A program made the translations under genes and the position numbers. The notes under the pieces were generated by a model. That model made no database searches and was not told where the DNA came from. It saw only the letters and a program-made list of their open reading frames with translations. From Branchiostoma floridae (lineage: Eukaryota > Chordata > Leptocardii > Amphioxiformes > Branchiostomatidae), in the NCBI RefSeq assembly GCF_000003815.2, contig NC_049988.1:11912521-11976520 (forward strand): DNA of 64,000 nucleotides, written 5' to 3'. Shown one piece after another: positions 16,194 to 38,600 of the stretch (its first letter is position 1; every line of letters starts with the position of its first letter).

Positions 16194-16575
16194 AATATTT
16201 GTCTTGTTTTGTCTTGGTTAGTAACATTTTACTTAATTCGTGGACACATGTGCTTGCATGAAGAAATTTCAAGAAGAAAAAAGAATGAATAAGAAAAAAG
16301 AAAGAGATCATTCGAAGACTATTTTCTTGTAAATTCTTATAACAAGAGAGATGTCCTTACTTTTCTTAAGCTAAGAAATAATTTCTCAAAAAGACTTTTT
16401 CCCCTTAGAATTTTCAAGAAATGTATTGTTAGTCAAAATATTCTTGGTATTCTTGTATGAAGACTGAAATTCTTGCCATATTTAAGAAAGTACAAGAATT
16501 TTTCTCTACCCTCTCTTGATTTTCTTATAGTAAGAAAAAAACAAGAACATCAAGATATAAAAACAAGTAGTTACT
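16194..16575. repeat. CAAGAA/TTCTTG-rich array, left portion
   Basis: Dense CAAGAA, AAGAA and TTCTTG words in an AT-rich context. The same vocabulary resumes at 35621 after the transposon, and the transposon's 9-bp target duplication is shared by the two edges, so this was one continuous array before the insertion. The word CTTAATTCGTGGACA near 16230 recurs near 38420 at the far side. Confidence 0.7.
16567..16575 (+). repeat. Target-site duplication, left copy
   Basis: GTAGTTACT directly before the left inverted repeat; the same 9 bases follow the right inverted repeat at 35612-35620. The match could be scored as 10 bp (AGTAGTTACT) if the terminal A of the right end is counted as host. Confidence 0.7.
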
Positions 16576-16892
16576 TAGCCTGGGTACCATTCTCCGCGGT
16601 CGGCTTTGGGGAGCTTTACCCGGCACCCTGCTTCTGTCAGCCTGTCTGATTAGCTGCCCTTTGAGATTTCGCCTATAGAGCTTGTAGCCGGCCTTTTCAG
16701 TTTACCCCTCCCGCGGAGACTGGAACCACAGCTTGGGACTTTTATTCAGGCGCCGCGATCGCGGCGCAGAGCTAGCCAATAGCGTGTGGTCAATCTAATT
16801 ATCGGGCTGAGCTCTGATTGGCGCAAGCAAGGCGCGAGGTTTCAGCTGTCATCTGCTCTCAGGCAGTCCTATTGCTCATTACCATATCCATC
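16576..16892 (+). promoter_or_regulatory. Transposon left end and helicase promoter, first copy
   Basis: Near-identical to 23642-23969. It contains the terminal repeat, a subterminal inverted repeat (ATTCTCCGCGG and CCGCGGAGACT), the 18-bp perfect palindrome GCGCCGCGATCGCGGCGC at 16750-16767, and CCAAT boxes in both orientations (GCCAATAGC and GATTGGCGC). It lacks an 11-bp CAGGGCTAGCC duplication found in the second copy. Confidence 0.65.
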
Positions 16893-17014
16893 ATGGCGGG
16901 CGTTGAACACGCCGAGGGGCCAAAACAGGCTGTAGAAAATGCGATTTCGCGGGCTTTGCTGTCGGTAGAAGGGGTAGATAAGCTCAAAGATGAGCAGCTA
17001 AATAGTCTGCGACC
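16893..17014 (+). pseudogene. 5' fragment of a second RecQ-like helicase gene
   Basis: Forty complete codons from the ATG match the start of the helicase at 23970 at the protein level. The copy then stops at a 100-N gap (17015-17114), and the sequence after the gap is unrelated, so the rest of this copy is either missing from the assembly or truncated. Whether it is a real second copy or a duplicated contig end cannot be told from the sequence. Confidence 0.7.
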
Positions 17015-17114
17015 NNNNNNNNNNNNNNNNNNNNNNNNNNNNNNNNNNNNNNNNNNNNNNNNNNNNNNNNNNNNNNNNNNNNNNNNNNNNNNNNNNNNNN
17101 NNNNNNNNNNNNNN
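17015..17114. other. Assembly gap, 100 N
   Basis: Exactly 100 N, a customary placeholder for a gap of unknown size. It lies inside the duplicated helicase 5' region, where collapse or misjoining is likely. Confidence 0.95.
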
Positions 17115-18831
17115 TAGACCAGCCATGACATTGTGTTGAACATCTATTTTATTAGCTTCTCTGCTTAAAAATCATTTGGCTACTCTGGGTTTATTGCCAT
17201 GCAGCAAATATATTAGATAACGAAAAGATCATAGCAGAATACATCATTGACATGGGGAGGGGGTTATGAAACTATGCTTTACCTGCCGATAATTTACATG
17301 CTTCTTCTCTCTCTTGAAACATTGGTAGCAAATTTACAGATTGTTCCCATTATACTATATCATACGATTGCATATGTGAACATTTCGTCATTTTATCGAC
17401 GCATAATCATACGTATTGTGAACGCCGAGATGTAGCCTTCGCAATATGTTTTGCTTGTTCAGACATCAAATAAGTAAAACATTTGTGAACTGTGACTGAT
17501 TCCGTTGCTACATACTTAACCAGCACAACGCACAGGCCAACAAAATACGGACTGCGCATGGACTCTAGAAGACAAAATCGCACTCCCCTGGAACACTGAA
17601 CAAAAATCAGCACTATAATCTTGATGGAATTGAAGATGAGACCATTTTGTTGGAGACTGTGCAACAATGCCATCATGGCAAACAGCAATGTAATGACAAG
17701 AGGGCGAAAAGCGCTAGAGGAGAGAACAGGGGCTAAGATGGCTATCAGCTGAGGCAAGCCAAGGACCATGAAAAGAATACAAGAAGAAAGGTAAGGAAAA
17801 ATTATCGTATGCGTTTTTTCATTTTATTTCATTTCATTTTAATATTTTTAATATTTCTTGATAAACTCTACAGATTCCTTTAATGTTTAGGTCAAACATT
17901 TTTGTCGACCTACCGACCGATGAACTCTCTAAATAAAGCCTACGTGTTACATGTCTACGTGTTGCCTTCACGCTAAGTCGCACACAGAAAACGTACACTC
18001 TAATTAACGTTACACTAGAATTGTATACGATTACTATAGTTATAGAGAAAACTCAAAGTACGTCATTGTTTTGTTAAGGGAGGAATGGGGAGGATCGTTC
18101 TATTGCCACGTATGCAAGGACGTATGGCCAAGTCGACTGTTCAGAGGTTTTACCTTTTTGTGCCTTTCACAAAGAAACCGTGCAACGTTTATCCTACAAT
18201 TTTTCGGTCGGCCTACCTCGTAATTGTAGCTCGCGAACGTCTTCAAAAGACGCTGGGATTGATGATTACATAGTGGTGCCCCTACAGCCCAGCCTAGGCC
18301 ACATGGTGGGTGACGTGTAGGACAATGAACCTGTAATTGTACATAACTCATCCTAACATCTCTTGTTAATACTCCCTGACGCAGATGAGGGGACACGTGT
18401 CCCAAAGTTTTAGTATGTTGGCATGCCAAATCAATGGATATCGTGCGAAGTTACCGGACATGAAGGGATCATAGCATGTAGTCCTTTCTTTGTCCAGTTC
18501 TTTTACAGTGCACCTGTCGTCATCCACCTCATTTGCATGATGTGCAAAAACACCCAGACCGTCACCAGCGTCTTGTCAGGAAGGGCACATTTGTGTAAAA
18601 GTTGGGGAGAAGGCAACACCGTCTCTCAAGCACGCGCCTTGGTGATTTCAGAAGGTAAGCTTTAACCATACTAATATTTTCCGGTAAACTGATGGAACAC
18701 TTTGCATGGAGGTGAGGGAAAAGAGCATTAGAAACCATATAATATCATACAATTGTCTCCTGCGAATTCAAATAGTTGTCCATTCTAAATTGTATCTCAA
18801 ACAATGTATCAGTATTTCGTTTTAACGTTTG
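17115..18831. other. Non-coding interval
   Basis: No recognisable gene. A hydrophobic 120-codon frame on minus (17407-17769) and an 80-codon frame on plus (18423-18665, followed by a donor-like GGTAAGC) have no family features I recognise. Confidence 0.4.
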
Positions 18832-19114
18832 AACACTTTGATAAAGTCTCTTAAACTTGCGTTTCTCGCATTTATTTTTGATTGCTGACATATGGCGAAC
18901 TTCTCTGTCCAGAGATTTTTAGAATGCCGTGACACGCTGTGTTTGAATTTGTGTGTGTTTTCGAATAATTTCTCTAGCATAATTGAAGAACGTCAAATGT
19001 CAAAAGAACTTTATTAGCCTTTGACACGCTGTATTTCAAAAATAAGATCTGAATTATCGCTATTTTACACCATGTAACTGTGATTTACAAAGTTTAGAAA
19101 CTTTATCAAAGTGT
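18832..19114. mobile_element. Candidate MITE with about 24-bp inverted ends
   Basis: The left end AACACTTTGATAAAGT (continuing CTCTTAAAC) recurs inverted at 19092-19114 as GTTTAGAAACTTTATCAAAG followed by TGT. The element is about 280 bp, AT-rich and non-coding. A 196-N gap begins 9 bases beyond the right end, so the target duplication cannot be checked. Confidence 0.6.
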
Positions 19115-19123
19115 GAAAATGTT

Positions 19124-19319
19124 NNNNNNNNNNNNNNNNNNNNNNNNNNNNNNNNNNNNNNNNNNNNNNNNNNNNNNNNNNNNNNNNNNNNNNNNNNNNN
19201 NNNNNNNNNNNNNNNNNNNNNNNNNNNNNNNNNNNNNNNNNNNNNNNNNNNNNNNNNNNNNNNNNNNNNNNNNNNNNNNNNNNNNNNNNNNNNNNNNNNN
19301 NNNNNNNNNNNNNNNNNNN
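19124..19319. other. Assembly gap, 196 N
   Basis: Run of N next to a MITE end. The size suggests an estimated gap rather than a placeholder. Confidence 0.95.
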
Positions 19320-19671
19320 ATGTAGTGTCCTTCTAGTTTCTTCCTTCCCAGAAGCTATGGGAAGGAATGTGGATTTTGTATATACTTAGGCCTAGGTGTT
19401 GTTATGAGTTAGTACAAATCATATGTACGAATGTTGTTAAGATGACGACGGATGTCACAATGCATATACTCATATCTTGGTGTTGTAAACTGTCCAAACG
19501 TCACGCGGGTCCTTTTAGTTTCAAGGGATACACGTAGGAAACGTGCAATGAACTACTTGCTTAAACGCGCCGGAGCTGCCCGAGTCGAACAGCATTGGCT
19601 AGCACTTGAGAAGTATCCTGCTGAATAGGTTTTCCTTGTTCAGTCATCTTCAATAAGTTACAAAATGTACA

Positions 19672-20808
19672 GGTGTGACAGCGATCTCGCCCCCCCGTGA
19701 TCTCGCCCCCCCGGGGGCGAAATCACTAGCGATCTCGCCCCCCCGGGGCGAAATCACTAGCGATCTCGCCCTCCCCGGCTAGTGATCTCGCCCCCCTACC
19801 TCGCCCCCCTTTAGCGATTTCGCCCCCCCCCCAAAAAAAAACGGGTTTACATGACATTTTAGAAGTTGATTGGTATAAATCACAAAATGCAGTTTCAGAA
19901 TGATATAAGTACACGAGTTTGATACATAACTCCATTCATAGTATCAATATTAACGTAATTACATGGTAATAAGTTTCAGACAAGGAGGGTTGGTTCCCTT
20001 GTATTCCCATTATTGCATATACCTGAGTCTTGACATAAAATGTATTTCATTGTATTCACCTGTCCTCAAGCAACCTATATATCTCCAATATGAAGTCTCT
20101 ACCATGAAGTGACCACAAAAGAACTATGTAATGTCTTTATTAATTATGCAAATATTAGGTATTAATTAGAATAACGCACATTTTGGTATATGCACCTGGC
20201 CAAGGGATATCTTCACCTCCAACATGACTGTTTTTTCTAGTATGTAGGAACTGATGCATTTACCCGTGTTTCTTAAGACTGGTACTTTACCAGTGTTTGT
20301 GTAGCATTTAGCAACAGCTATATCAACTTGCGCGTAGATAGTGTTTATAATGAGAAACTATTATTCACGTGTGTTTTTGTTAGTGCTTTGGAAATGTTTC
20401 CAGCACAAGAAAGAAAACACTGTGACAAATTGAAAACATATAGCTGACGTATTCCGTACCATAGACGGTGTTGATTTATACGTTCGCAGTAGCACTGTTT
20501 TTATGCCACCTCAGCTGCAAAAATTGTCTTTTTCATTTCAATGTCATGTTTGCACCGAACAATATAGTATTGACTTTCGAGGTATGACATCTTACGGTAC
20601 GGTAATAAGGTGCCATATAGGTACCAGGTAACACACCAGATACGTTACTCCCCAGGTGCAGTATAGTACCAGGTAGCGCACCTGTAATATGTAGTAACCA
20701 GCTGCTCTTGGGGGGGGGGGGCGAAAACGCTAAAGGGGGGCGAAAACGCTAGTGATCTCGCCCCCCGGGGGGGCGAGATCGCAGGGGGGGCGAGATCGCT
20801 GTCACACC
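19672..20808. mobile_element. Non-autonomous transposon with CGATCTCGCCCCCC inverted ends
   Basis: The left end GGTGTGACAGCGATCTCGCC and the right end GGCGAGATCGCTGTCACACC are perfect inverted repeats. Inside each end the unit GATCTCGCCCCCC is repeated several times in both orientations, producing long C and G runs and strong foldback potential (19680-19830 and 20705-20800). The roughly 870-bp centre is AT-rich and non-coding. No exact target duplication is obvious; AATGT occurs a few bases outside each end. Probably mobilised by a transposase elsewhere. Confidence 0.75.
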
Positions 20809-22666
20809 GGAATGTTTGCTTTCTTGTTGATGAAAATTTTCAAAAAGCAACCTAGTTCTGTTCCAATCTATTTTGCAAGGCACGATATTAAAGGTAAAGT
20901 GGTGCAAAGGACATACAAATTTGAAAAATGTCCTTTTCTTTGTTTTCTTATCACATGTTATCTTTGAAAATTTAGCTCAATGAACTGTCATACCGTGGAC
21001 ATTTTCTGTAAAGAAACTTACTTGGATTTGCCAATCCCTGCCTTAGTAATTGAAATACTGTCAAAGCATGAGTGAAAAGACATAAAGTGCAAACAGATTT
21101 TTTTTTAGAATATGAAATGCGTTGAGCGACCTGTCAAATCTCTCGGTCACAGTCAGGTCGCAGGGAATGGGGGTGTTAGTTATGCTGCCTTAGTTGTACT
21201 TGCGAGACACCAACTTTTCATATGAACCTGAATGATTGGAGGGGATGTTTGGGACGTCCACTTATACACCAATTTGAAAAAAAATGGTGTATAAGTGCTT
21301 TTCCCGCTTGTAAAACTGCTATAGATTAGAACCCAGGACCATTAGATTCCACAACTCTAACCACAATGTGAAGGCCACCAAAATATCCGAACGAAACTCT
21401 CGCGGAAACAACTGCAACACTAGAAAGGCCGACATTTGCTTAAGAGCAAATACAGCATATTTCAGCCATACCCCTTCCCACGCAACATTGGACTGTTCCA
21501 AATCACCCCTGCGCAAAAATGGAACATCCTCTTAACAGTACATTATCCCCCAAAGTGGACTGGTATTGTGAATTGATTCCAGGTAAAAACAGAGCTTGCT
21601 TCTATTTTTCAGAAAATGACAATAATCACACCTTCCATTCAGAAAATTTTCATCATGACTGAAAATTGTTGAATGACTTCATGTAATATCATTAACAATT
21701 TTCAGAGCGATAACTAGGTGTAAGTTTGAAAAAGTATAAGCTCCTTGTGATGTGGGTACATTTATTATTGCAGTGAACTTTTTTTTTATTCAAGTAGGGC
21801 ATACGATTTAATAATTATCAAGCAGGTGCAGGTACTGTAGGAGCGTTTGTTTTCTTCAAGCTGTAAAACTGTTAAACTGTTTTACTTTGTATGCAATCAG
21901 CCATCGAGCCTATTCTTATTTTAGTTTATCAACTTCCTGCCAGACCCGGAAGATACGATTGAACCTTGTTCGAGGATTTATTTTCGTCTGTCTGGTCAGT
22001 CTGTTCATACCCTGGCGCTGAGAGTGTTTTATTGGGCTGAAACTCTGGCAGTTTAAAGTTACTTACAATTTAAATGTTCAAAGTTTATGTCAAACAACAA
22101 CAGCACTAGGAAATGTGGCCACTATAGACAGGTGGTCACTATAGAGAAAATGCTGATCTATTGACTAGGAGCCATACGTTACACATGATTTCAGTACACT
22201 GATCATTAATCATATAAACATTGCACAGGTAAGCCAATTGTTCAGATGTACAATTAAGTTCAAATAATTCTGAAGAGAAATATTGATGAGAAAATAATCA
22301 TTCTCGCCACTGTCTAACTTATAATTACGTATCAAAACTAAACGCAGATTTTCTAACTAACGCACCTTTCGCCGACTTCATCAAAGGACCGCCGGCTATC
22401 AATCAAACACGGCTGTTGATTAGACTTAGAGTTTCAAACAGTCATGTGCTGTGTGCCAGTTGACAGCGAACTTCATGCTACGTGATGTTTTACATTGCTT
22501 GGACCTTCTTTCCTACAGCGGTGCTTCTACAAAATATTTAGACTGTAACACTGAGTCCCACATGTTTTATAGAATAGAATTTGACGCAGAACAGCGTTTT
22601 TTGCTGGGTATTTTTCTTGAAACATGTCCGTGGGAATATCAGCGAGGCGGCGACGTAGGGATATCA
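20809..22666. other. Non-coding interval with one perfect hairpin
   Basis: No gene recognised. At 21259-21297 the 13-bp arms CACTTATACACCA and TGGTGTATAAGTG form a perfect hairpin with a 13-bp loop. The rest is AT-rich without visible repeats. Confidence 0.45.
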
Positions 22667-22906
22667 GACCGTCAACAAAAGTCGCACGGCGGCTAACGGC
22701 GCAGCGAAGATAATAAGCTATAAATAAGCGCTGCAACTAAGGATGGCAACCCGTACAATATTTTTGTATACTGTTGAGCTAAGTAAAGTTTGTTGTTTAT
22801 GAGGTTTTAGTTGTCTTTGAAGCTTTGACCCGAAATATTCTAAAGTCAAACTGCTGAAGAGAAGTAAGTGACTGCTACGATTATCGTAGATATGGCCCTA
22901 AAAAAA
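22667..22906 (+). repeat. Diverged direct repeat, copy 1
   Basis: From ACCGTCAACAAAAGTCGCAC to the A-run after GGCCCTA. It aligns, with many substitutions and small indels, to 23427-23639. Its end is close to where the second transposon left end is inserted in copy 2. Confidence 0.6.
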
Positions 22907-23426
22907 CTGATAAAAGAAGCCTTCTCAATAGTCTAAAATGCAAGAGCTTCCGGGGTGGTTTCGCCCACCTGGTCCCCCCCCCCCCCCCCCACAGTGGCCC
23001 TGCCCCTGGACCCCGCCAGGGACAATCGGGCGGCCCCCGGACCCCTGTCCGACGCTTTGAAAAAATCCTGGCGAGAAGTCTGTACGGCTGGAGTCTCAAA
23101 GTTAACGTATTGTGTGGTCCCGCTAATGAATATTAATTAGCCTTCGCTTTTCTCTTCGCTGATTGGCTGAACCATTAATTGAATTAACTCTTCCTGCCGG
23201 CTAGACGCAGGTGCAGATGTCGGCTCTGTGGGGTGAACGTCCGAAAGGTCATGGCATGGAGAACGAAAGAAAACCAATTTCCCCTAACAAAAAGTGTTGT
23301 AATTAAGCCTTTTACAGTACTTTATGCCAAAAGTTTTACTTGGAGCATTTTACCAACTATCTTATGCCTATCTATACCAAATGTTACTAATACCAGGGTA
23401 CAGGGGTGCAAAATATACCGTTATAA
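22907..23426. other. Interval with C-tract, non-coding
   Basis: Contains a pure run of about 19 C near 22974-22992 followed by a GC-rich stretch (to about 23060), then AT-rich sequence. No gene recognised. Confidence 0.45.
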
Positions 23427-23639
23427 GACCGTCAACAACAGTCGCACGGAGCTAACAGCGCAGCGAAAATACCATCGCTAGCGTTTCAACTTCGGATAAC
23501 AAGTTATAAGTACTGTTGAACTCAGTAACGTTAAAGTTTGTTTTTAGTTGCCTTTGACGGTTTGACCTGAAATATTACGCTAAACTCCTGAAGAGAAGTT
23601 AAGTGACTGCTGCGATTATCATAGATATGCCCCTAAGAA
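23427..23639 (+). repeat. Diverged direct repeat, copy 2
   Basis: Partner of 22667-22906. The transposon left terminus at 23642 begins just after its ATATGCCCCTAAGAACT end. Compared with copy 1, the host-like sequence is cut exactly there, which supports 23642 as a true element boundary. Confidence 0.6.
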
Positions 23640-23641
23640 CT

Positions 23642-23969
23642 TAGCCTGGGTACCATTCTCCGCGGTCGGCTTTGGGGAGCTTTACCCGGCACCGGCCTTC
23701 TGTCAGCCTGTCTGATTAGCTGCCCTTTGAGATTTCGCCTATAGAGCTTGTAGCCGGCCTTTTCAGTTTACCCCTCCCGCGGAGACTGGAACCACAGCTT
23801 GGGACTTTTATTCAGGCGCCGCGATCGCGGCGCAGAGCTAGCCCAGGGCTAGCCAATAGCGTGTGGTCAATCTAATTATCGGGCTGAGCTCTGATTGGCG
23901 CAAGCAAGGCGCGAGGTTTCAGCTGTCATCTGCTCTCAGGCAGTCCTATTGCTCATTACCATATCCATC
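23642..23969 (+). promoter_or_regulatory. Transposon left end and helicase promoter, second copy
   Basis: Terminal repeat TAGCCTGGGTACCAT, then a subterminal inverted pair (CCATTCTCCGCGG near 23654 and CCGCGGAGACTGG near 23778), the perfect palindrome GCGCCGCGATCGCGGCGC at 23816-23833, and CCAAT boxes in both orientations near 23850 and 23895. No TATA box is evident; it looks like a GC-rich CCAAT promoter. The 9 bases before it (CTAAGAACT) have no partner at the right end. Confidence 0.65.
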
Positions 23970-26647
23970 ATGGCGGGCGTTGAACACGCTGAGGGGCCAA
24001 AACAGGCTGTAGAAAATGCGATTTCGCGGGCTTTGCTGTCGGTAGAAGGGGTAGATAAGCTCAAAGATGAGCAGCTAAATAGTCTGCGACCGTTTTTGCT
24101 CGGCAAGGATGTGATGGCTCTTCTTCCAACTGGATTTGGAAAGTCTTTGATTTATCAACTTGCACCTATTGTGGCTGGACACCTTGTTACATCGCCGGGC
24201 TGCCCAGATCGTCTCAAGACTGCGAACTTTCCAATTGTCATAGTTCTGTCCCCTTTGGTCGCACTAATCAACGACCAAGTTAAAGCAGCCAGACGACTTG
24301 GCTTGACGGCTGTCTCTTTGGGTGACGCAAGTGCAGAGGAGTTAAGAGACGTAGTAAGGGGAAAGTTCCAGCTTGTTTTCGGTAATCCTGAAACTTGGGT
24401 TTTGTCGTCAAAATGGAGGGACATGCTGAGGTCTGAAGTTTACCAGGACAATCTCCTTGGGCTCGTGGTGGATGAGGCACATAAGACTCCAGCTTGGTAT
24501 GTAGTTTTTAATGAAAGCAAGATTGCAGATTAGTCACAATCTTTAACCATCTTCACAGTTAATCGTGCATGTAATCCCGAAGCGCTTGGCACCTCATGCT
24601 TGTTGTCCATGCTTGTGCATAATGCATGTCCATCTCTAATTCACCGTGTGGCGGGTGAAACTAACCTCTTTCATGGAACCGCTTCATTTAAATATCAGGA
24701 CAACAATACACATGTAGATGATGTAAGTTTAAAAATGCATGCCTTTGTTTTCATGTGTAGAAATGCTGTCAAAACAAAATATTAATCCACTAATGTTCGG
24801 TGTGCAAATTATGCACCTGTTTCCTTATGACCTGTAGTTGGATTGACATGACATTTTTTTTGGAATGGCTTCTATTCACAGAATGAAATATTTTGTTGTT
24901 GATAAATGATGCCTTGGTAAACACAAGGACATTATATAGAAGTGCCCTTCTTAAACAGTAGTAGTCATAGAGTAGTCTCACTGTCCCACCATAAATAATC
25001 AATCATATGCTCTACTTGGCTCTGCCTTCTATTTCTGTTTCTGTATCTATATTAAAAATTGTGACAAACTTTTCTACCTGTTTTATTTTTTCCAGGGGAG
25101 AAGCAGTTTCAAGAGGAGGGGCACCATTCAGAACATGTTTTGGTAGAGTCTCGGAACTACGATCACTTTGCAAATATGGTAAGACAAACATTTCTTTGGT
25201 AAGACAGATATTTCTGTTGAATTTTCCCTTATAACTTTGTAAAGTCAAAGAAAGTTATAAAATCCATTGTGGAATTATGGCCAAGTGTGAAAATGATCTA
25301 TATTTGACAATTTGATTCACACCACATTTTTATCTTGTTTACTTAATATGTTTCCACTGTTTCCATGATGCAGGGACACCTGTCTTGGCACTGACAGCCT
25401 CTGCAGAGCTGCCGACAAGGAAGGACATTGTGCGTCTACTGAGCATGAACTCTGACACTACTTTCGTGGAAGCTAACCCAGATAGGCCCAATATCAGACT
25501 TGGGGTGGTCCGGGTTAAGGGGTCTGATTTGTCATGTCTGGATTGGATTGTGACAGGGTTGAAGGAGCAACAGACTAGCTTTCCCAAGGTAATCATATAT
25601 GTTAGAAGTTTTAATAATATTGGAGCTGTGTTTGGCCACTTTAAACGTGCACTTGGTGATGCAGCTTATGTTGGTAAAAAACATTCAACAAATCGTCTTT
25701 TCGCTGTCTACTGTGGTGAGACCCTGAGTGACAAGAAAGAACATGTAATGCAAACATTTGTCAGCTGTCCAGATTCTACTGCTCGAGTTGTTATTGCAAC
25801 AACAGCCCTAAGTATGGGAGTAAACTTCCCTGATGTGAAGTATGTTGTTATATATGGCCCCCCTGAAAGTATGGAAGATATTATGCAAGAAGTGGGGAGG
25901 GCAGGTAGGAGTGGCGAACAGTCCCATGCTGTAATCTATTCCTTTTCTTTGTCTCAGTGTAGTAAGGCTGTTTCACAATATGTTCGATCTGACAAGTGCC
26001 TCCGCATCATGTTATATGATAGATTTCAGGCAAAACCAACCACCAAATCCATTGATCCTGGACACTTGTGTTGTTCCAACTGTCACAAAACATGTAAGTG
26101 TGATTCCTCAAAGTGTAAAGAGCCACTACCAAGTACTGAATGTAAGGTAGAAGCAGAGGAAACAGAGCCATCCCTGAAAAGAAGTGTCAGTGACCATCAA
26201 AGGGACATTCTCAGAGAGGCCCTGTATGAGTACCGTGATTCTCTAGTTCACAGTAACTCTAAACTGCTCATTTCCTTTGACCTCACTACTGGATTTTCAC
26301 ATGATCTTATCAAACATGTGCTTGACAAGTGCGAATACATATTCACACCAGCTTATGTGGAGTCACACCTTCCTGTGTTCGGTGGAGACCAAGCCCAAGT
26401 CATTGTAGACATAGTCCGTAAAGTTTTCGATGAACAGTTGGATATAGATAGCATGTTGGAATTTGTTCAAAAGGAGTTTGCAGCTAATCCACTTATCTTC
26501 TCAAACCAGGACCAGTTACTTGCTACTTTCACGTCCAGTAGTGATAGCAGTGGTGATGATGTCAGTAGTGATGATATTGAGAGTTCTGAAAGTGACCAGT
26601 ATGATGTGGATACATGTACATACAGTAGTGATGACAGTGATGAATAG
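23970..26647 (+). CDS. RecQ-family superfamily 2 DNA helicase, transposon-borne (3 exons)
   Basis: Exons 23970-24496, 25096-25178 and 25374-26647 join in frame (phases 2, 1) to 627 residues. RecQ motif 0 has the glutamine at residue 35 (LKDEQ). Walker A is PTGFGKS at 53-59, motif Ia LSPLVALINDQV near 93, the DEAH box at 168-171, motif III ALTASA near 209, motif V IATTALSMGVNFPD and motif VI QEVGRAGRSGE at 375-385. A cysteine cluster at 436-451 sits where RecQ proteins bind zinc. The C-terminus is Ser/Asp/Glu-rich, with no HRDC domain. This should be an ATP-dependent 3'-5' DNA unwinding enzyme acting in the nucleus, probably in transposition or repair of donor sites. It is convergent with the DUF6589 gene. 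AATAAA at 26831 is a plausible poly(A) signal. The start ATG follows the GC-rich leader; an earlier in-frame ATG-less extension exists but is leader-like. Confidence 0.88.
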
Positions 26648-27269
26648 GAAGATTTGCTGGACATACTAAGCTGGACACAAATTGTCTTAAGTTGTTCAGA
26701 CAGAATTTTCAAAGTGTTGTCCGAATTGTGTACATAACACAAGTTGTAGAGCCTTGAATACACATGCCATGTCAAAGGTGGGAAGAAATAATCTTCTTTG
26801 TTTGTTTTTTTGGTGAATTTGCATCTGAATAATAAACTTCACAAGACAAGATTGAATTTGAATTGATTCAGACTTTTATAATTTTCTTACACAGCAATAT
26901 ACTGTATTCTGACAAACAGACTTTTTGTTCTAATACATGCTTCCTGAAAACCTGGTTGGGACTTCCCAGGTGTCATTCTCAATTTGGGACAAGTTGAATT
27001 TATTTTTAGGACAGTTCTGGGGCAGTAAGGAAAAAAAACAGATAATTGTGTTGTTGCCATAGGAAATGTTAAATGTTTTGGGAAATAAGTGATAAGAAGC
27101 AGAATATAAACTGAATATAAACACATGTTTTATTGAGTCAACTTGATAACAGGAACTAGGATGTATATTGATCATCCTTACTTAGTACGAATACCACTTC
27201 TGTGCTTACAACAAAATCATGTTATGCACAGTAACAAAGTCATGAAAAAAAGACATGAAACTTTTCAGA
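26648..27269. other. Helicase 3' UTR and intergenic sequence
   Basis: No further coding sequence. A poly(A) signal is at 26831-26836. It leads into the tandem array between the two convergent genes. Confidence 0.5.
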
Positions 27270-27960
27270 AGTCATGCTGTGCTCCAATTACTTCTGCATA
27301 CAGTATAAGAAGTCACTCGCTAGTCAGGTACATTGGGAGTACAAAGAAGTCATCAATTTACAATGCACAAGGTACACGGAACTTTTTACAAAGGCTGTTG
27401 AGCTCCAATTACTTCTGTGTACAGTTTAAGAAGTCAATAACTAGGTCATGTACATAAAGAGTACAAATTACACTGGAATCTACAATGCGCAAGACACATG
27501 GAACTCTTCTTCACAATGACTGTTGTGCTCCAAATACTTCTCCATACAGTATCAAAAGTTAATCGCTAGTCAAGTACAAAGTAGTCATCAATTTACAATG
27601 CACAAGATATACGGAACTTTTTACAAAGGCTGTTGAGCTCCAATTACTTCTGTGTATAGTTTAAGAAGTCAATAACTAGGTCAGGTCCATAAAGAGTACA
27701 AATTACTCTGGAATCTACAATGCACAAGACAAATAGAACTCTTCTTCACAATGACTGTTTGACTGTTGTGCTCCAAATACTTCTCCATACAGTATTAAAA
27801 GTTAATCGCTAGTCAAGTACAAAGTAGTCATCGATTAACAATGCACAAGATATACGGAACTTTTTACAAAGACTGTTGCGCTCCAATTTCTTCTGCGTAC
27901 AGTTTACAAATTCAATCACAAGTCAAGTCCATGAGTACAAAGTAGTCATCTATAAGCTAA
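27270..27960 (+). repeat. Tandem array of about 115-120-bp units between convergent genes
   Basis: About six units each contain CTCCAATTACTTCTG or CTCCAAATACTTCTC, then a TACAGT-AAGAAGT word, a CTAGTCA-GTAC word and TTTACAATGCACAA. Units alternate in type, giving a higher-order period near 237 bp. The array lies between the stop codons of the helicase and DUF6589 genes, inside the transposon. Confidence 0.75.
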
Positions 27961-28086
27961 CAGAAGTATTGAAATATCGAGAGACTTGTGGTCTATTACT
28001 TCAATCTCGTGGTCTATCAATGCAATCAGAATATTTACATTGAATGAGTCAGCAAATTATCAGAATGTTCTATCAAAGATGATTTC

Positions 28087-31000
28087 TCATGCATTCTCAT
28101 ATGTAGCTGACCACTTAGAGACTAGCCTGTTCACCCATTTAGCTAGATTGACTGAAGAAAGCTTTGCCAAGAGGTCCCTCTTGAAACCAGGGAAGGAGTT
28201 GTATTCCCTCCCTGGGACATAGCTAAGGGCCTCGACCTGTGCGTACTGATCGACCAGGGTGTGCAGCTCTGGAATGCGATCAGCTTTGGTGTGGCGTCCA
28301 GAGTCAGAACGCACACCCAAGTCTGAGTCTGCCCTCTTTAGCAGTGCCGCCATTTCACCAATGGCATTGGCAATACGGGCAGCACTCTGTTCATTGAGGT
28401 TAGGCCCAAGGTGCTTCAGGAAGGATTTCAGGTAGTTGTTCATGTGTTCCAAATTTTGATCCAGGGGGATATTGTTACCTTTACCGCCTCTGTTGTTCAC
28501 TACTCTGTTCCACACCAGACTGTGGGCCAGCTTAGGGGGCAACAGGGCATTCACTTTGGCAAAGAACATCAAAGTACCATATGCATATTTGGTGTGGCCG
28601 TAGGCTTTGTAATACAAAAGGGCCATCCTGAAGCACCTGGATAACCTCTCCCCGTCTCCCTCCTTGGTGGCATCGTCCATGTTGCGGATCAAGAGAGCTA
28701 GGGTCAGTTTGCTTGTCTGGTAGTTGTAAATGTGGTCTTCTTTTGGCAAACTTGACTCTTCGCTCTCTTCCTCCACAACAAGGTCGTGATGGCCTTTTTC
28801 ATGTGTGACTCTTGCCCCAGGCCTTACGTACACCTTTGGGCAACCGGGGTGTCGGCAAGGCAACTGTGGTCTCGGTTTGGGTGCCATACCTTCTCTGATG
28901 TCATGGAGAGACTCAGTATTGCCTGCAAGCAAGTCATCTACAATCTCTGCCGCCCTGCTCTCAAGCCAGTCCTTTTGCACGTGGAGATTGGCATTCAGGA
29001 TGTAGGCAGGGGGGAAGTCTGCTGGTCGTGCTGACAGAATAAAAAAAGAAAAGAAAAACAAGACAAGACTATCGTCAGTTTCAAGTGCCTTTGTTATAGA
29101 ATGAAATGTTGTAATGAATAGGACAAGTTGTAATTGTCATGTGATGCTTTTGATATGTTAAGCTATGTATACCTGCTAATGTTAAGCTATTAAACTGCTT
29201 TAATTTAGCCTTTTGTGCTGCTACAAATACACTACATTGCCTTTCAATAAATGTAAGCAACCATCATGAATTGTATAAGTTGGAAGGTGTACTTGCAGTA
29301 CATTTCACATAATGAGAAGCATGGATGTTTTAAAAGAAACACTTCTCTCACCATCAATGCTTTCCAACTTGAAGGCTTTCAAGCAGGCGTAGATGATGAG
29401 AGCATCGATGTCCTTGTTGATGTACTCCTTGTAGTGGTTGTAGGCATCGTGGGGTCCTTTCTTGGCTGTTGTTGCGCCTACCACATTCATGTTGGAGCAC
29501 AAGGATCCCTTGTCACCCGCCGACGCCTCCTTGTAGAAGATGCTGTGCAGTATCTAAAACACAAGAAAGTGAAAAATCATTTAATAGGTGACGCCCAAAG
29601 TCAAGTCAACAATGTTGTCATATACTTAGCCTTCGGTATGTTAGTATACCCAGACACATACTTTTGCACATATGAATATAAAAGAGGGATGGACAGTGTA
29701 AAGATATAGATATCATAGCACAGCCTAATCTCCAAGCAGATCTTGTGGTGGCCTAAGATGGTATCATAAGCTTGGGAAGGAGTTTAGCCAGCAAAAGGAG
29801 TAAATTGATCTGCTTGGAGATTAAGCTCAGTCCTCACACTAAAAATAAGATAGATAAACAGAAACTGACCTCTACCAAGTTTCTTATTGCGTGCCACAAC
29901 TCGAACTTGGGGAGAAGACCATCCAGGCGCTCTTCTGCGTTGTCACCATCCATGAATGCCAACTGGACATTCTCTGCCCTCTCCACTGAAAGCCAGTCTC
30001 CCCCAAGGAGAATTGTGAGAAGGAGGCGCTGGATCCGGCCTTCGGGATCCTCTTCTGCAGGGACAAAGTGGGTTTGGATATACCGAAGTATTTCCACCAT
30101 GTCCGCACTCACATTCTCATTTTTGAACTGCAGGCCTAGCCAGGTCTGAAATCAAGAAGTTGGAAAACTTTAGTCTGTATGCAGGCACACACACACATAC
30201 ACAGACACACATACCAACACACACACACACAGACACACACATACTGGCACACACACATGCATGTACACACATAAACACTCAAACCACACACAAACACATA
30301 TACCACAATAACCAACACACAAACACTAACATAAATGTGCATGCATACACCTATACCCCACACATCTATACATACATATATCAACACATACATACAACAC
30401 ACACAGACAAACACACACACAACAGTGTTATATACTCAACAATCATATACTTAGCCTTTACACAAGTATCAGGAATGTTAGTATTCCCTGACATACATAC
30501 ATATGCATACATACATACATACAGAAACATCCATGTTCACTGTAAGGGATATTGCCATGTCATCGCCTTTCTATGAATCTATCAGACATGAAGAAAAAAA
30601 GACTTTCTCCTCTAAACATTAAACACTAAAAGTGGTTGTTTAGTCTTAAGGCATGATCTATCTTGCCTAGATCAAGTGAAACATATTCATACCTGCTCTG
30701 AGGCCTTCGACATCTCCTCGCTGTAGGGATGTGGGATGTGTCTTACGGCTGCTTTCTTCAGCTGCTCGAAAGCAGCCAGACAGTCAACCATTATCCTGCT
30801 CACGATGATGATGTAGTCTCTTCGCAGTTGGGCCTGTATGGCTTCTGTCGGTAGGTAGTCGGCGACTGTCAGGTCACGGAGTGACTTCTGCGGGGTGGAA
30901 CTGTCCAAGTCATTCAGCACCCTGTCTATTACGGCATATTGTTGTATCCAATGTAGGGACCTGTTCTTGTTTCTCTTCGATTGGTGTTTTGCTGTCACAA

Positions 31001-33681
31001 AAATGTCCACATTGTCAAATATGACCTGGTACGTGCGTATTGGCATGACCTTGAGCAATGTGATTGCACTGGCGATGATGTCCTTTGCGGTTTTGTGCAA
31101 ACTGGAAACAGACTGTGTGATGGCAAAGATTGCGCGTTTATACTCTTCAACTTTGTAGCCAGGAATGTTTTGGAGTTTAGTTGTCAGTGTGGTCTGTACG
31201 TCAGGGATGTCCTTGGTGATGTTGGTGTTGTCCTCTTCAAGTTGCTGCCCCAGTGGCTCTACACCCAGCTCGCTCATGTCATCCTCAGGTGAGTCTTGGA
31301 CAAAAGATGGGAAGGAAAAGTTGCAGGCTTGAAGGTCAGCGGAACTGATGGTTGAGTTCCCGGACTGGTCCAGCGTTGCCTTTTCACCTGAAGCCTCCTC
31401 CTCTTCAATGATGCTGTACAGCTCCTCTAACGATGAAATGGCACCAAACTGGGCCTCTATGGTGGCTTTCCATTCCATCATGTCCCTGTCTCTGTTCTTT
31501 CCAAACTCAACTTGCTTCGCAATGCTTCTGCTGTGCGACATGCAGATGTTCTGCTTGTTGAGACGTTTGAAAGCTTTCTTCTTGGCACCCCCTTGCAGCA
31601 GTACAAAGCTATTTCTGTACTGCCATGCTGAAAGGGTGGGGTGTTCAACCTTAACACAGATGGAGGCGGCGGTGCACTTGGCAATCTGGGCTGGTCTGCT
31701 CTCCTTACCACAAGCACCCTGGAAACATGCATTTAGCCAGGGGGTTCTTGTCTCCAGCTCCTCTGCAAATGCATCCATGTTGAAGTTGACGAGATCGTCG
31801 GGTGACGTTTTCCCCAGAATCGAGCTACCTGCTAGGTCACGTACCTCCGTGTTGATCTTCTTGGCCACTTTCTTCTGCAAGGCAGCTCCCATGTTCTTCA
31901 TCCTCAAGGCGCTGTTAGCTGCTGCATTCCAGCTTTTTTCTGTGACTTGTTGCACCAGGGCCTTGGCGTCTCCTTTTAACTCGATGACTCTGGCATGCTT
32001 GTCTGATGGGTACTTCAGGAGGATCTGTTAAACAGAAGAAAGAAATGTTGCAATGAAATATGAGCCCATTGAAATTTTGCGCTAATATCTGTAAAGTATG
32101 TATATGCATATGAAATATTGTGACTTTCCTCAGCATACATAGACATCATTCTCCTCAAGAAAGACTTCAGCTTAATTCCTTTGATTTCTATCTTTTTCTA
32201 ACAACAATAGATTGTATCAGTCTATAGTCAAATTATTCACCTAACGAAATTATCATTAATTCCACAAAAAAATTATATACACTAGGTGAACATATTACAC
32301 TCGAGCAGCCTACCAAAAAAAAGTTTGACATCTAGTGGAGGCAAAGACGTAATGAAAACATGTGTATGAAAACATAAATAAGCAAATCAAAGTAACGTTG
32401 AAACAATATAGCTACATGCAACCCAGATATAGTCAATAGTACCAGTATACAAATGTAGCAATGGCAGAAACAAGGCCCACCGCCCGACACACACACCAGA
32501 CAGAATGGGGGAGGGGCCAACGCGTCATCGTGCTAGTAATTCTTGGATAAACGGGAGGATTATAAGCGGTAAAAATGTCTTGCTGTGGTAGAAATTACAT
32601 TTTTTTTTAATATTTGGCAACTGATACAGTTTCTACTGATAAGATTCATGTGGTGTTGTTGCTCTATGTCCATTTTGAAAAGACCGACTTGACCTAATTT
32701 TAGGCATGATGTTATAACATGATGTTTGATCGTGCGTACGGCGCGGTACAAGTACGATGGTTTGTTTATGTCAAAGAAAACAGAGACATTCAAAGTTGCT
32801 CGCATGAAAATTGAGTTTCAAAAAACGTGAGACTCGAGATATTACAATAAAAACAACGTCTTGTAACTAAGGTTACTGTTTCCCCTCGGCCTGTCAAAAA
32901 AACTAATGATAAATTATGAAGCACGTTCAGGCCAACGTGATCTGAACTTGAAGCGAGTCAAAACTTAATACAACGGCATGCATGTGTGACAATCGACCTA
33001 ACTTTAGCAAAGTTTTAAACATACCTGTAGGCTGGTTGTGTCTGAAGGCGGAGGCGCGATGTTTTCTCGGGCTTCGACTGACAAGCGGGTCACTTTGCGG
33101 GCGGGAGAGTGCCTTGTCGGTGTAAAGGGCAGGTTCCTTTTCGTCTCGCCGCCTCGTTCTTCCAGTGGCGCCGACGTCTGTTTCTGAGGAGTTTTGGGTC
33201 CACCAACCTCCTTGGGTCCACTGAATATTCCTCGCCATTTTTCGATAGCTTTGGTACACTTGTCGGTGTCTCTCTGCCACTGTAAAACATGCGTGACTTC
33301 GCGGTTGCACGGCGCGCAGATTGAGGACCCTTTCTTGATCTCGATTCCCAACACAGCTTCCAATCTTGATGCCGGGGACTTGTCACTCACCGAATCCGCG
33401 AAAAACTTTCTCGTGTGCGCAACCTTGCCGTTCACTCTCATATCAATCGCACAGAGGAAGCATAACACCGCGGAGGCCATTGCGAACAACATGCTCGGAA
33501 ACGACCCTACAGTGGAACTGTTTCCCATCGCCAAACGCCTCCAATTTATTGGCGATATTGCTGTAAACAAGGCTTTTCGCACATAGGTGTCAGTATCTGG
33601 ACATAAGCTCTGCATCTTGAGAACTGCGTTTATTCCCACGATTAGGAGATATCTGTACCATGAAGCCCTGGCATGATACAT
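28087..33681 (-). CDS. DUF6589-type protein with C2H2 finger, candidate transposase (5 exons)
   Basis: Exons on minus: 33025-33681, 30693-32024, 29870-30145, 29352-29553 and 28087-29030, phases 0, 0, 0, 1, giving 1136 residues. The N-terminal exon has a CxxC (CAPC) and a basic, Ser/Pro-rich tail. Family signatures as I recall them for metazoan DUF6589 proteins: a FDNVD block (Asp 556 and 559), GGDWLSVERAE (Asp 713, Glu 718), LWHA near 746-749, KYAYGTL and WNRVVNNRGGKGNNIPLD, and a C-terminal PGREY. A C2H2 finger (C881, C886, H899, H903) lies before the last block. The acidic blocks and paired Asp are consistent with an RNase-H-like DDE-type fold, which is my inference. The gene is divergent from the acidic gene and convergent with the helicase. 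The start at 33681 is the first ATG; an internal Met about 40-45 residues later is an alternative. Confidence 0.82.
29726..29823. repeat. Small foldback in intron 3 of the DUF6589 gene
   Basis: TAATCTCCAAGCAGATC at 29726-29742 recurs as a perfect 17-bp inverted copy at 29807-29823, with a 64-bp loop. Probably a tiny foldback element; it also contains direct-repeat words of the flanking intron. Confidence 0.6.
30187..30425. repeat. CA-rich microsatellite in intron 2 of the DUF6589 gene
   Basis: Interrupted (CA)n/(CACACATA)n low-complexity tract of about 240 bp. It produces long spurious reading frames on both strands. Confidence 0.9.
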
Positions 33682-34595
33682 GCCGCCGTCTTTTCAAGTT
33701 CCCGCGAAAGATCAAGGGGCGCCATTTTTGTTGTGGGAAACCCCTTCATTTGCATATAATGACGTCAGGTACGTACTATGCAACCTGCACGGCTGCACGA
33801 CATTAATTGTGGCTAGCACGTTGGAGAATGTCTTTCACCATTCCAATCTATCTTGAAACTCCTACCATTAAGAACTTACCTTTCAAAAAAATCAAGAACA
33901 CTATGTATTTAGTTTCAGACTTACAGACTAGGGTTAGCAAGCTGCGGAGTTTCCATCGTGGGATCATGGTAATCACACGCACGTACGAATTGGGGAAAAT
34001 CCATCAGCCTTTGACAAGTGGTTCTTCTGCCTCATATGGTACGAACTTTCCCACAACAATTTTGACAGATCTCATCATAAGTCACACAAAACTGGCAGAT
34101 AACGCACACATGTTAATTACGTAGGGAACGGCAGTCTTAGTTTAGATAAAAATCGGTGCAATCTGTTTCCTCGAGGTGCGATTATTCTCACAGTTTTCTT
34201 CCTGCGTACCCTCCATACTCTGTACTGCTACAATCGCCCACGCCGTCACAATTTTAATACTACTGAGTGCTTTGATTGAGATTTTACCAAGGCAACTGCT
34301 TGAATTGAACGGCTCCAACCGGCTTTAAATCCAGGTAAGTTATATGTTTTTAATTGTTCATTTTTAATACCAACTCCCTTCTTTGTGAACTATCGGAGGC
34401 CTTGGTTGCCAGACGTCCTCTATTGTAATAAAGTTGGCCAAATTGGCGGTGAATATTTCATCCGCTATCGGATTTGACCTTTGACTTTACCAGTCCGGGT
34501 AATTACATATTCAAAGTACTTGCAGATAATAAGTATAAATGATGATGGTGCAATCTTTGTATGTACCTTTATTTTTTCATTATATTTTTCTAGAC
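33682..34595. promoter_or_regulatory. Divergent promoter between the DUF6589 and acidic-protein genes
   Basis: About 0.9 kb between two divergent start codons. It contains an octamer ATTTGCAT at 33748-33755 and a perfect CRE TGACGTCA at 33760-33767, close to the DUF6589 start. A donor-like CAGGTAAGTT near 34331 and the acceptor TTTTTCTAG at 34593 suggest a 5' UTR exon for the acidic-protein gene. Binding of these sites in vivo is inference. Confidence 0.5.
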
Positions 34596-35012
34596 ATGGC
34601 TGGTAACCTGTCACCAACCCACGAGCTCATGGACTATGAGTATGACAGCGATCAGACGTTCTGCTCGGAAGTAGAATGGAGCCACCTGGAACGTGCAGAG
34701 ATCGCGATCGGAGAGCCGCTTCGTACATCCACCCCAGTGCCGGACCCTAGTACAAGTTCTAGAAATGACTCTTATGAGCTGGATCCGAGCGGTGACATGT
34801 TTCTGGAACCGCCTCATAAAGAAGAATCTGCCGAGACGGAGTACACGTTCGACCCCAGCGCAGATCTTTTTGCGTCACTGGACAGTACGCCAGAAGAGAA
34901 GACAACTGATCATGAAAGCAGTGACTGTGACATAGTGGACTGTGACGAGAAACCAATCGACCTTCGTACAGTCGTACCGGAGACGCAGACGTTCGCGGCG
35001 AATAATAAGTAG
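34596..35012 (+). CDS. Small acidic transposon-encoded protein
   Basis: 138 residues, starting MAGNLSPTHELMDYEYDSDQ. It is rich in Asp, Glu, Ser and Thr with few basic residues and no hydrophobic segment, so it is probably a disordered nuclear or cytoplasmic protein. It has an internal repeat: ELDPSGDMFLEP near residue 65 and TFDPSADLFASL near residue 88. The ATG lies 2 bases after a polypyrimidine acceptor (TTTTTCTAG), suggesting a non-coding first exon. It sits between the divergent promoter and the right terminus of the element. I do not recognise a family. Such proteins in transposons can be accessory DNA-mimic or activation-domain proteins, but nothing here proves that. It could also be one exon of a longer gene, though no downstream exon is apparent and the frame has its own stop. 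Confidence 0.6.
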   Translation: MAGNLSPTHELMDYEYDSDQTFCSEVEWSHLERAEIAIGEPLRTSTPVPDPSTSSRNDSYELDPSGDMFLEPPHKEESAETEYTFDPSADLFASLDSTPEEKTTDHESSDCDIVDCDEKPIDLRTVVPETQTFAANNK

Positions 35013-35487
35013 TATTTATGTGTGCACGGTAAAAGAAGAAACGTTGTAACAAATAACAAACGTTGTAACAAGTAACCTCAGGTCAAGACCTTTCTCAGGT
35101 ATTGTAAATTCAGATCGGCTTGCCAAAACATCAGTATTACTACCGTTTTATTTCTTGTGAATAACTTTTTATTTTGCGAACTGATAAACATTAAATATTC
35201 AATAGCTATGTAGCATCGTGTCTGGTATCACTTCTTGCGTTCCTAAACAAAGAAAACAAAACATATTGTACAGACATATTCAGTCGTCTTATCCTTGATC
35301 ACGTGGTTACCAGCGCCAGCGGTTCATTAATATTTATAGCTCCGGGCGCTGATTCGCTACCGCGTGCAGCTGGTATGGCCAATCGTGCTGTCACACCGCG
35401 GTGCACCCGCGGCGCCGACGGCCCTAAATGAAAGTTACTCCACCCTCGCTCTGCGGGGGCTCAGAGGAGACTGGCTGAAACGTGATT
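35013..35487. other. Acidic gene 3' flank and GC-rich right subterminal region
   Basis: AT-rich 3' UTR-like sequence to about 35300, then a GC-rich stretch with GCGGCGCC and CACCGCGGTG palindromic words. No coding sequence recognised. Confidence 0.45.
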
Positions 35488-35611
35488 CCATACCGTCGGG
35501 GCGCGACTAAAGTAATCTAACCCCGTAAGAACTCCCCCGGCCTGTACCAATCAACTGTACGGGCGGTCACCCCTACACCGCCGAGCGCCCGACGGTATGG
35601 TTCCCAGGCTA
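35488..35611. repeat. Right transposon end with subterminal hairpin
   Basis: CCATACCGTCGGGGCGC at 35488-35504 is inverted at 35585-35600 (GCGCCCGACGGTATGG) with one base difference, and the second arm overlaps the terminal repeat ATGGTTCCCAGGCTA. The left end has the analogous arrangement, so both termini can fold back over about 100-125 bp. Confidence 0.65.
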
Positions 35612-35620
35612 GTAGTTACT
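35612..35620 (+). repeat. Target-site duplication, right copy
   Basis: GTAGTTACT directly after the right terminal repeat; matches 16567-16575. Confidence 0.7.
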
Positions 35621-38600
35621 GGAATAAAAGTCTTGAATGTTCTTGTTTCACATATCAAGAAACATCGAGAAACTCTATTCTTGATTTTTTGGGAATGTTC
35701 AAGAAAAAACAAGAATTTCGTTCTTACATTTCCTCAGGTATACTGCTCAGAAAAACAAGAACATTCAAGATACATGTAATTTAAGTACAAGATAAAGTGC
35801 AAGGAATTACTGGAATAATAATCTTGAATGTTCTTGTCTTTTGTATCCAGAAACTTTGATAAATGCATTTTTTTTTCGTAAGTGAAGAAAGTATTTCTCA
35901 TTTAACATTAGCCATGTTTGAGTTCACCGACAAGAGTGTTCTAGAAATCTGGAGGATTTGCATAATCTATCCTAATTCTAGGTAATTAAGAACTCGGGTA
36001 CAAGAGTATGGTCCTTGACTTACTTGACTGAATACTAATAACTAAACAGGAAATTACAGAACAAGCTTTGACTAGCATAAGACTCTTGAATGTTCGTGAT
36101 TGTTGTTTTTATTCAAAATATCCAATAAAAACTAGCACATATAGAAACTTTTCCATTGACCTTCTTGGCAGACACTGTTTATCATAATACATGTGTCTAT
36201 CAAGATGTAAAGAACAATAAGTTGGAACCAGCAAAATTGCTGTCTATTTTCTCAATGTCAGATCAGAGTTTAAGAAATTGATTCTATATTTTTCTGGTAA
36301 TAAGAGAACAATTTTACTAAGGATCATGGGAAATTACTCCCATCATCCTTTGCTGCAAATTTCAAATTCTAGACAGTTGTAGCTTGCATGCAAACTGCCT
36401 CTCCTGGTTTATTTGTCTGATGTGCATTAGATCTTGCAAATACAGGGCACAGATATGGTAGATTTCTGTAGGACACTTTCCTGTATCACCTGGGACCCTG
36501 TTTACAATGTGGCCTTGCATTTCTAAGCTCCAAAGTGCAACCAAAGCCGAAGTCAAGCTTGGAACATTATCTATTCAGGTACGTCAGCCATCTTGGTTTT
36601 CAAAGTATTTTAATTTCACATTTCTTTGGTTGCATATGCATGATAAGGCGACCAGTAATTGCAGAATGTAGAAGTGAACACTTGCATGAATCCCTCCAAA
36701 ACACTAAGACTTAAGTATGATATTTTAAAGGAAGGAAAAGTATAGAGATGTTGATGTCCAAAATCCTTATGGGGAGGGGGGCATTCATCAGGGAATTGTT
36801 TGTTCATAAACTGTCTGTGTGTTGTTCTAGGCATGGAAACCAGCTGGACCAAAGAGGATGCCCCCATCTCAACTTTGGAAAAGCTTTCAACAAGAACAAG
36901 TGACATGTATTATGATTATGATACCATCACCAACAACATTACAGCAGTAATGGTGCTGTTTTAGAAGGACAATAATTAAGTTATTAGTATATGCTCAGTA
37001 TCAGGAAAATGAATTTTTATAAGCAAGCATCATATATGATCTAAATCTGTTGGTATCTGCAATAATGTTGCAATCTTTAAAATAATGGTTCATAGGGGAG
37101 AAAATGCCCCAAAATCTGGTATGAAACTTATTGATGGACATGAGTATGATTGGAAATACATTTACAACTATATAAACAGCAACATTGACCAGTTCGTGAT
37201 ACAAGAACCTCAATCTTACTTTAAGAAATGGTTTCTATGTTTGTAGGTGTAAGAAATTCAGTCTTGAACTTAAAGATAGCAAGATGTTTGCTAATACAAA
37301 AATTTCAATATTAGCACAGCAAAGTAGTACCCTAGGTCACTAGGTGTACGGAATTTGGTCTTGGTAGGCAATAAGAAGTGTGCTTTTGATTTAAGAAAGT
37401 TACTCTTGTTGTAAGAACAATTAAGAAAATATTTCTAGCAATAAGAAGTGTGCTCTTGATGTAAAAAAGCTATTCTTGATATAAGAAATTTAATCTTGGT
37501 ATAAGAACACCAATCTTGAAAGTAAGAAAATATTTCTGGGAATAAGAATTGTTGTCTTGATGTAAGAAAGTTACTCTTGCCGTAAGAAATTTAGCCTTGG
37601 TATAAGAACACCAATCTTGAAAGTAAGAATATATTACTAGCCAATAAGAATTGTTGTCTTGATGTAAGAAAGTTATTTTTAATATAAGAAATTTAATCTT
37701 GGTATAAGAACACCAATCTTGAAAATAAGAAAATATTTCTAGGCAATAAGAATTGTTATCTTGATGTAAGAAAGTTATTCTTGTTATAAGAAATTTAATC
37801 TTGGTTTTAAGAATGCCAATCTTGAAAATGAGAAAATGTTTCTAGGCAATTAGAATTGTGCACTTGTAGTAAGAAAGGTATTCTTGTTGTAAGAATAGCA
37901 GTCTTGGAAATAAGAAATGTATCTAGGCAATAAAGAATTTTACTCTTGATATGAGAAATTTATTCCTTTGTGTGAGAAAATCAATCTTGGAAGTAAGAAA
38001 ATATTTCTAGGCAATAAGAAGTGCGCTCTTGAGGTAAGAAATGTATTCTTGGTGTAAGAACACCAATTTTCAAAGTAAGAATTTCAATTCTTGGTGTGAG
38101 AACACCAATCTTGAAAGTAAGAATTTCAAAATAATTCTAGGCATCAAGAATTGTGCTCTTGAAGTAAGAAAGACAGTCTTGCTGTAAGAGCACCAATCTT
38201 CAAAGTAAGAAAATGTTTCTAGGCAAAAAGACTTTCTGATCTTCATGTGAGAAAAGGATTGTTGAATACAAGGCTTCAAATGACAATATATTAGTAAAAG
38301 AATATAGGCACAAGAACATTTATAAAAAAATCTTATTGTAAGACTAACATTCTAGTTAAACTTTATGAGATACCTCTAAGAAATATAGTCTTGCTTCAAG
38401 AAAATTCAGTAAGTAAAAAATTGCTTAATTCGTGGACAAATCTGTTTTCTTACTCAGTGAGTTAAGACACTTTTCGCCCTTCTGCCTAATTAACTGATCC
38501 ACCAACTTTGATGTGCTGTAGAAAGTTACTGGTTTGGTATTTTTCAGAATAGTCAGGAAAAAAATCTTATATGAAGACAAAAATGTCTCGGTACAAGAAA

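Follow-up and report, generated by a model that had tools for sequence, protein, structure and literature searches.

The closest described relatives of the element that we discuss here are the AcademH transposons. AcademH is a DNA transposon that encodes a helicase and has 9- or 10-bp duplications (PMC10045372), and by the title of its report it occurs in animals and fungi (Kojima 2020, Mob DNA 11:15, cited in PMC10045372, PMC10799480, and PMC12210899). In AcademX, the duplications are of 3 or 4 bp and a nuclease takes the place of the helicase, and the length of the duplication seems to be related to which of the two is encoded (PMC10045372). A RecQ helicase is also encoded by KolobokH, which is known from fungi only; Kolobok elements have 4-bp TTAA duplications and 5'-RR ends (PMC9587614). 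(These papers were available in part, and what we say of them holds for those parts.) Here we describe a transposon with its own genes, very probably of the AcademH kind, in the genome of Branchiostoma floridae. It lies in a window of 64,000 bp (assembly GCF_000003815.2, contig NC_049988.1, positions 11,912,521 to 11,976,520 of the forward strand; coordinates below are those of the window). The element proper is 11,970 bp long (23642-35611, plus strand) and bears genes for a RecQ-type helicase, a DUF6589 protein, and a small acidic protein.

This is a genuine transposon with genes of its own and not a host helicase gene beside repeats: it has inverted ends, target duplications, intact genes, and dispersed copies, as an autonomous terminal inverted repeat (TIR) transposon does. 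The left terminal inverted repeat TAGCCTGGGTACCAT (23642-23656, plus strand) also stands further out, at 16576-16590, and the right one ATGGTTCCCAGGCTA lies at 35597-35611 (plus strand). The two match in inverted orientation at 14 of 15 positions, and the short inverted ends of the element begin TAGCCTGG. The 9-bp target duplication GTAGTTACT is found at 16567-16575 and, identically, at 35612-35620, with no further occurrence in the window. Joined through a single GTAGTTACT, these flanks give a sequence whose alignment to a nearby unit of the CAAGAA array spans the junction (78% over 77 columns, E = 2e-12), so the two outer flanks were one site before the insertion. In a control join, for which the flank was taken from beside the inner left end (23642), the alignment ran only from about the junction onward. 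A preliminary description of this DNA had reported these termini, the duplication outside both, the CAAGAA-rich array on both sides, and three genes inside, and all four were borne out. A tandem array of the type seen in the element's flanks is also present at 37422-37895 (102-bp unit, 4.7 copies, rich in TAAGAA and CTTGAT).

The helicase gene is on the plus strand, and its three exons join at GT-AG sites into an uninterrupted frame of 627 amino acids. Exon 1 (23970-24496) contains motif I (LPTGFGKS) and the DEAH box. Exon 2 (25096-25178) keeps the frame on splicing and is 81% identical over 32 amino acids to a relative on contig C18. Exon 3 (25374-26647) contains the QEVGRAGR motif, a cysteine cluster, an acidic tail, and the stop codon. 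Pfam reports DEAD and Helicase_C in the protein, the latter in exon 3, and the best matches in PDB are to the RecQ family (WRN, RecQ, and BLM). The cysteine cluster follows the helicase core and is not reported by Pfam; we take it to resemble the RecQ zinc domain. A 235-bp tandem repeat (27338-27932, 2.5 copies) separates this gene from the convergent DUF6589 gene.

The DUF6589 gene is on the minus strand, and its five exons join at GT-AG sites into an uninterrupted protein of 1136 amino acids. Exon 1 (33025-33681) has two CxxC pairs and a resemblance to zf-AD that is below the cut-off. Exons 2 to 5 are backed by the C18 relative: exon 2 (30693-32024; 53% identical in that relative) contains FDNVDI with D556, exon 3 (29870-30145) contains GDWLS with D713, exon 4 lies at 29352-29553, and exon 5 (28087-29030) contains NNIPLDQNLEHMN with E1017, a Cys-rich CRHPGCP insert, and the stop codon. 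The protein matches PF20231 (positions 7-410 of the profile and 604-1069 of the protein, E = 1e-49), which is annotated as a family of unknown function, DUF6589. The acidic residues in FDNVDI (D556), GDxLS (D713), and NIPxDxxxE (E1017) are conserved between this protein and a relative of 31% identity (two sequences). D556 falls outside the PF20231 match. These three candidate residues suggest that the DUF6589 protein is likely the catalytic DDE transposase, with a Cys-rich insert. We found no relatives of DUF6589 in the viral contigs and prokaryote genomes that we searched, and we met no mention of it in the literature that we searched. An intronless relative is found as a 711-aa frame around C17:8979632-8981086.

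The third gene (34596-35012, plus strand) encodes a small protein of 138 amino acids with 34 acidic residues (D or E) versus 8 basic ones (K or R). Relatives of it are found at five other places in the genome. One of these (C10:22681726) sits inside a second large element, described below. Another (C16:4846627) is about 6 kb from DUF6589 matches, and no helicase match is listed there. For the remaining three, of which one contains a stop codon, no DUF6589 match is listed within 15 kb. Three of the acidic-protein sequences share a strong excess of acid and four motifs, namely DSDxT and motifs like IGxPLxTSTP, SADxF, and DLRTVxxETQ.

The second element (C10:22670920-22682939, 12,020 bp) is a diverged relative of the first, and both of its ends are related to those of the element in the window. 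Its ends are TAGCCTGGATACCAG and TAGCCTGGTATCCAG, and it is flanked by an exact 9-bp duplication, TAATCATCA. It contains the helicase, DUF6589, and acidic genes in the same order and orientation as in the window, as known from matches rather than from full reading frames. The left 15-mer of this element is found at 306 forward and 315 reverse places in the genome (control, 0).

The pairing of helicase and DUF6589 extends across the genome. At least 39 helicase matches were merged into 35 places, and at least 40 DUF6589 matches, together with 38 of the 55 from a second search (the other 17 overlap), were merged into 60 places. At 18 of the 35 helicase places there is a DUF6589 place within 15 kb, and 14 of these pairs are convergent. 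Uniform random placement would give 0.12 such places, which is a crude expectation that ignores clustering, and some of the co-located copies are not independent (the C9 copy, below, is nearly identical to the one in the window). Thus, the claim of the preliminary description that the helicase works with a DUF6589 transposase stands insofar as the genes travel together, in the 18 pairs and in the second element; that the DUF6589 protein is the catalyst is likely, judging from its conserved residues.

Other associations were also seen among the DUF6589 matches of the assembly (G000). Four of them (C1:28783975, C7:14758167, C6:19835867, and C12:21937867) are in open frames of 863-1266 aa, and each is 2.5-3.1 kb from a convergent helicase match of about 30% identity; they would represent other helicase-DUF6589 lineages. 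Five more (C6:26077746, C7:10621306, C9:929644, C1:20463226, and C3:1295348) are in open frames of 1787-2762 aa, and for none of these is a helicase match listed within 15 kb.

Many smaller copies are dispersed through the genome. The exact 15-base left end occurs at 1198 forward and 1165 reverse places (0 for a reversed-pattern control), which take in other short families and not solely copies of the 11,970-bp element. The last ~95-125 bp of the right end are also present at other places. We examined 36 loci (L001-L008 and L041-L068), apart from the window itself (L039) and the C9 copy (L040). Three of the loci were single-ended, three showed an element that was already counted, and one contained two elements, which left 31 short elements to score. 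Of these, 26 are internally deleted forms of the 11,970-bp element, in which its beginning is joined to its end (85-100% identity per piece), in what is a non-random sample (28 of the loci were chosen by similarity to the right end). The duplications are exact over 9 bp in 24 of the 31 elements, 9 bp with one mismatch in two, and 8 bp in four; one element has none. With shuffled pairing of the flanks, 755 of 31,000 pairs matched, or about the self-pairing level. Further copies with different 9-bp duplications, which the preliminary description had proposed to look for, exist among the short elements and in the C10 element; of the two outcomes that it had named as contrary (no other copies, or genes never paired within 15 kb), neither occurred.

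A longer copy at C9:3202336-3207903 (5,568 bp) keeps both ends, is flanked by an 8-bp duplication, and retains parts of the helicase gene and of the DUF6589 gene. Its matched pieces are 98.7-100% identical to the element in the window. The near-identity of these copies suggests that the family moved recently. A diverged left end is seen in the C18 relative, and no right end was found for it in L072 or in 1.4 kb of L088. The C11 relative has no recognisable left end in 550 bp. Also, a near-match to the end lies beside the C11, C17, and C193 helicases, with no left partner within these ~4-kb loci.

The preliminary description had placed the element at 16576-35611, which is too long by 7 kb. The left end is present twice, at 16573-17014 and at 23639-24091, and the two align at 99% in 2 pieces, which are separated by a gap of 11 bp. 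The outer left end (16576-17014, plus strand) is cut by an assembly gap of 100 N (17015-17114). It is a distinct copy, because the 11-bp stretch that is found in the inner copy and in the C9 copy is absent there. The stretch from 17115 to 23641 is not assigned to the transposon. Its last part, 22642-23641, is an unrelated high-copy repeat with 39 other copies at 95-97% identity (among 40 candidates scored of 1416). A copy of this repeat elsewhere matches back to 21419, and a copy also continues unbroken past the point where the transposon starts. (Within the repeat at 21419-23641, a 40-bp sequence recurs at a distance of about 735 bp.) We rejected the 19-kb span for the element proper on account of the duplicate left end, the gap of N, and the interposed repeat. 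The bounds of 23642-35611 are supported by the 26 short elements that are its ends joined, by the 12,020-bp relative, and by the C9 copy, in which the left end passes straight into the helicase, as it does at 23642. The extra 7 kb (16576-23641) is most likely two similar insertions that were mixed in the assembly. The arrangement of two distinct left-end copies around a 100-N gap, the inner copy being immediately preceded by an unrelated repeat, is probably an assembly mis-join.

The alternative that survives best is that the whole 19-kb interval is one composite transposon, in which a partial upstream copy, a captured repeat, and the full downstream copy moved together. This would account for the 9-bp GTAGTTACT and the single array unit common to the flanks on the outer left and on the right, and there is not one N from 19320 through 35611. 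Also, a search of the assembly did not find the right end that the second insertion, the copy that starts at 23642, should have: one pattern matched at 30 places with 1-2 mismatches and at 0 exactly (7 for the reversed control), and a second pattern matched at 0. The failure of this search leaves the mis-join reading without its partner end. However, the 100-N gap comes just after the outer left end, and two similar copies are the classic place for a wrong join. Furthermore, neither the 12,020-bp relative nor the C9 copy has anything comparable to the extra 7 kb between its left end and its helicase. We consider the composite unlikely. It is compatible with our explanation except for the extent of the element.

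Our preferred explanation, a transposon of the AcademH kind at 23642-35611, leads to the following scheme. The DUF6589 protein, as a DDE transposase (candidate residues D556, D713, and E1017), would excise the element at its TAGCC ends and insert it into the target by joins staggered by 9 bp. The element's own helicase would open or remodel the ends or the gap intermediates. The acidic protein would serve as a regulator or as a factor for contact with the host, which is a guess. A broader proposal is that these are the parts of a three-gene system, in which a DUF6589 DDE transposase and an element-borne RecQ helicase act with a dedicated acidic accessory that is kept in diverged elements, in which the helicase or the acidic protein sets the 9-bp stagger or the processing of the ends, and in which DUF6589 proteins are generally transposases or the descendants of transposases. 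We offer this broader proposal tentatively, as somewhat doubtful.

Several observations weigh against our explanation or parts of it. First, 17 of the 35 helicase places lack a DUF6589 partner within 15 kb, and among the 18 pairs there are 4 that are not convergent. The unpaired places include weak matches, which may be host RecQ genes and fragments. Second, none of the loci of relatives that we compared has a homologue of DUF6589 exon 1, and a profile of the DUF6589 protein against solved structures, with E values up to 10, gave three weak matches, none of them to a transposase. Third, 5 of the 31 short elements resemble the element solely in their ~15-bp ends, so other elements share this end sequence. 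Fourth, we looked for a nuclease-bearing sister, and none of 8 XPG_I matches (the AcademX nuclease is presumably of the XPG type) was near any listed DUF6589 place, so AcademX gives no support. Finally, the likeness of the element to AcademH is one of its helicase and of the length of its duplication, as these have been described for AcademH. As to the ends-only elements themselves (L001, L003, L005, L007, and a 409-bp element in L066), the 9-bp duplication is exact in four of the five. They may be families that are moved in trans or that belong to other masters.

The comparison with known transposons rests on a small number of traits. Like AcademH, the element encodes a helicase (here an intact one of RecQ type, with DEAD and Helicase_C), and it has a 9-bp duplication at the copy in the window and at the 12,020-bp relative, as do most of the short elements. 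Unlike AcademH, 4 of the 31 short elements and the C9 copy have 8-bp duplications. Another difference is the small acidic third protein, which the available parts of the AcademH accounts do not mention (PMC10045372, PMC10799480, PMC12210899). AcademX is the other Academ lineage, but its 3- or 4-bp duplications and its nuclease differ from the 9 bp and the helicase found here. In the literature that we searched, Academ was not met together with amphioxus and transposable element, and Academ with Branchiostoma does occur.

The preliminary description had proposed an autonomous DNA transposon superfamily. A TIR transposon with coding capacity was confirmed; that it is a new superfamily, unrelated to Academ, now looks improbable. 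DUF6589 is absent from the literature that we searched, and the DUF6589 protein is no more than a candidate homologue of the Academ transposases, both of which leave room for such a superfamily, but a helicase together with 9-bp duplications is what has been reported for AcademH, in the part of PMC10045372 available. Instead, the DUF6589 protein as the transposase and the acidic protein may be new parts of a described type of element. A KolobokH-type element would also be a DNA transposon with a RecQ helicase, but the varied 9-bp duplications and TAG ends found here contradict the 4-bp TTAA and 5'-RR ends of Kolobok, and KolobokH is confined to fungi in the available part of its account (PMC9587614), which makes this identity very improbable. 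The weakest alternative, scarcely credible and already set aside in the preliminary description, is that a host RecQ helicase gene merely happens to lie beside repeats: the core does resemble those of WRN, RecQ, and BLM, but the ends and the duplications speak against a host gene, a second element with the same three genes contradicts it, and helicase and DUF6589 are co-located at 18 of 35 places and are convergent even among matches of ~30% identity.

These results tie DUF6589, a label for unknown function, to a mobile element with defined ends, and the annotation of multicopy DUF6589 genes in animals could be changed to that of transposon genes. Also, a copy with intact frames offers material for work on the function of a RecQ helicase that a transposon carries. 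The third protein, with its relatives in other copies, goes beyond the accounts of AcademH in the parts available.

The window has no matches to Rfam at gathering scores. Elsewhere in it, one short sequence (QALWG..AHNT in translation) recurs in similar form and in opposite orientation on the two sides of a 681-N gap (43000-43800), and this is probably an inverted-repeat element with an unsequenced middle. Two minus-strand frames, at 46622-47035 and 55795-57325, look by eye like EGF-like and collagen-like (Gly-X-Y) sequence and are probably host genes. A frame made of a 51-bp repeat adjoins the collagen-like one.

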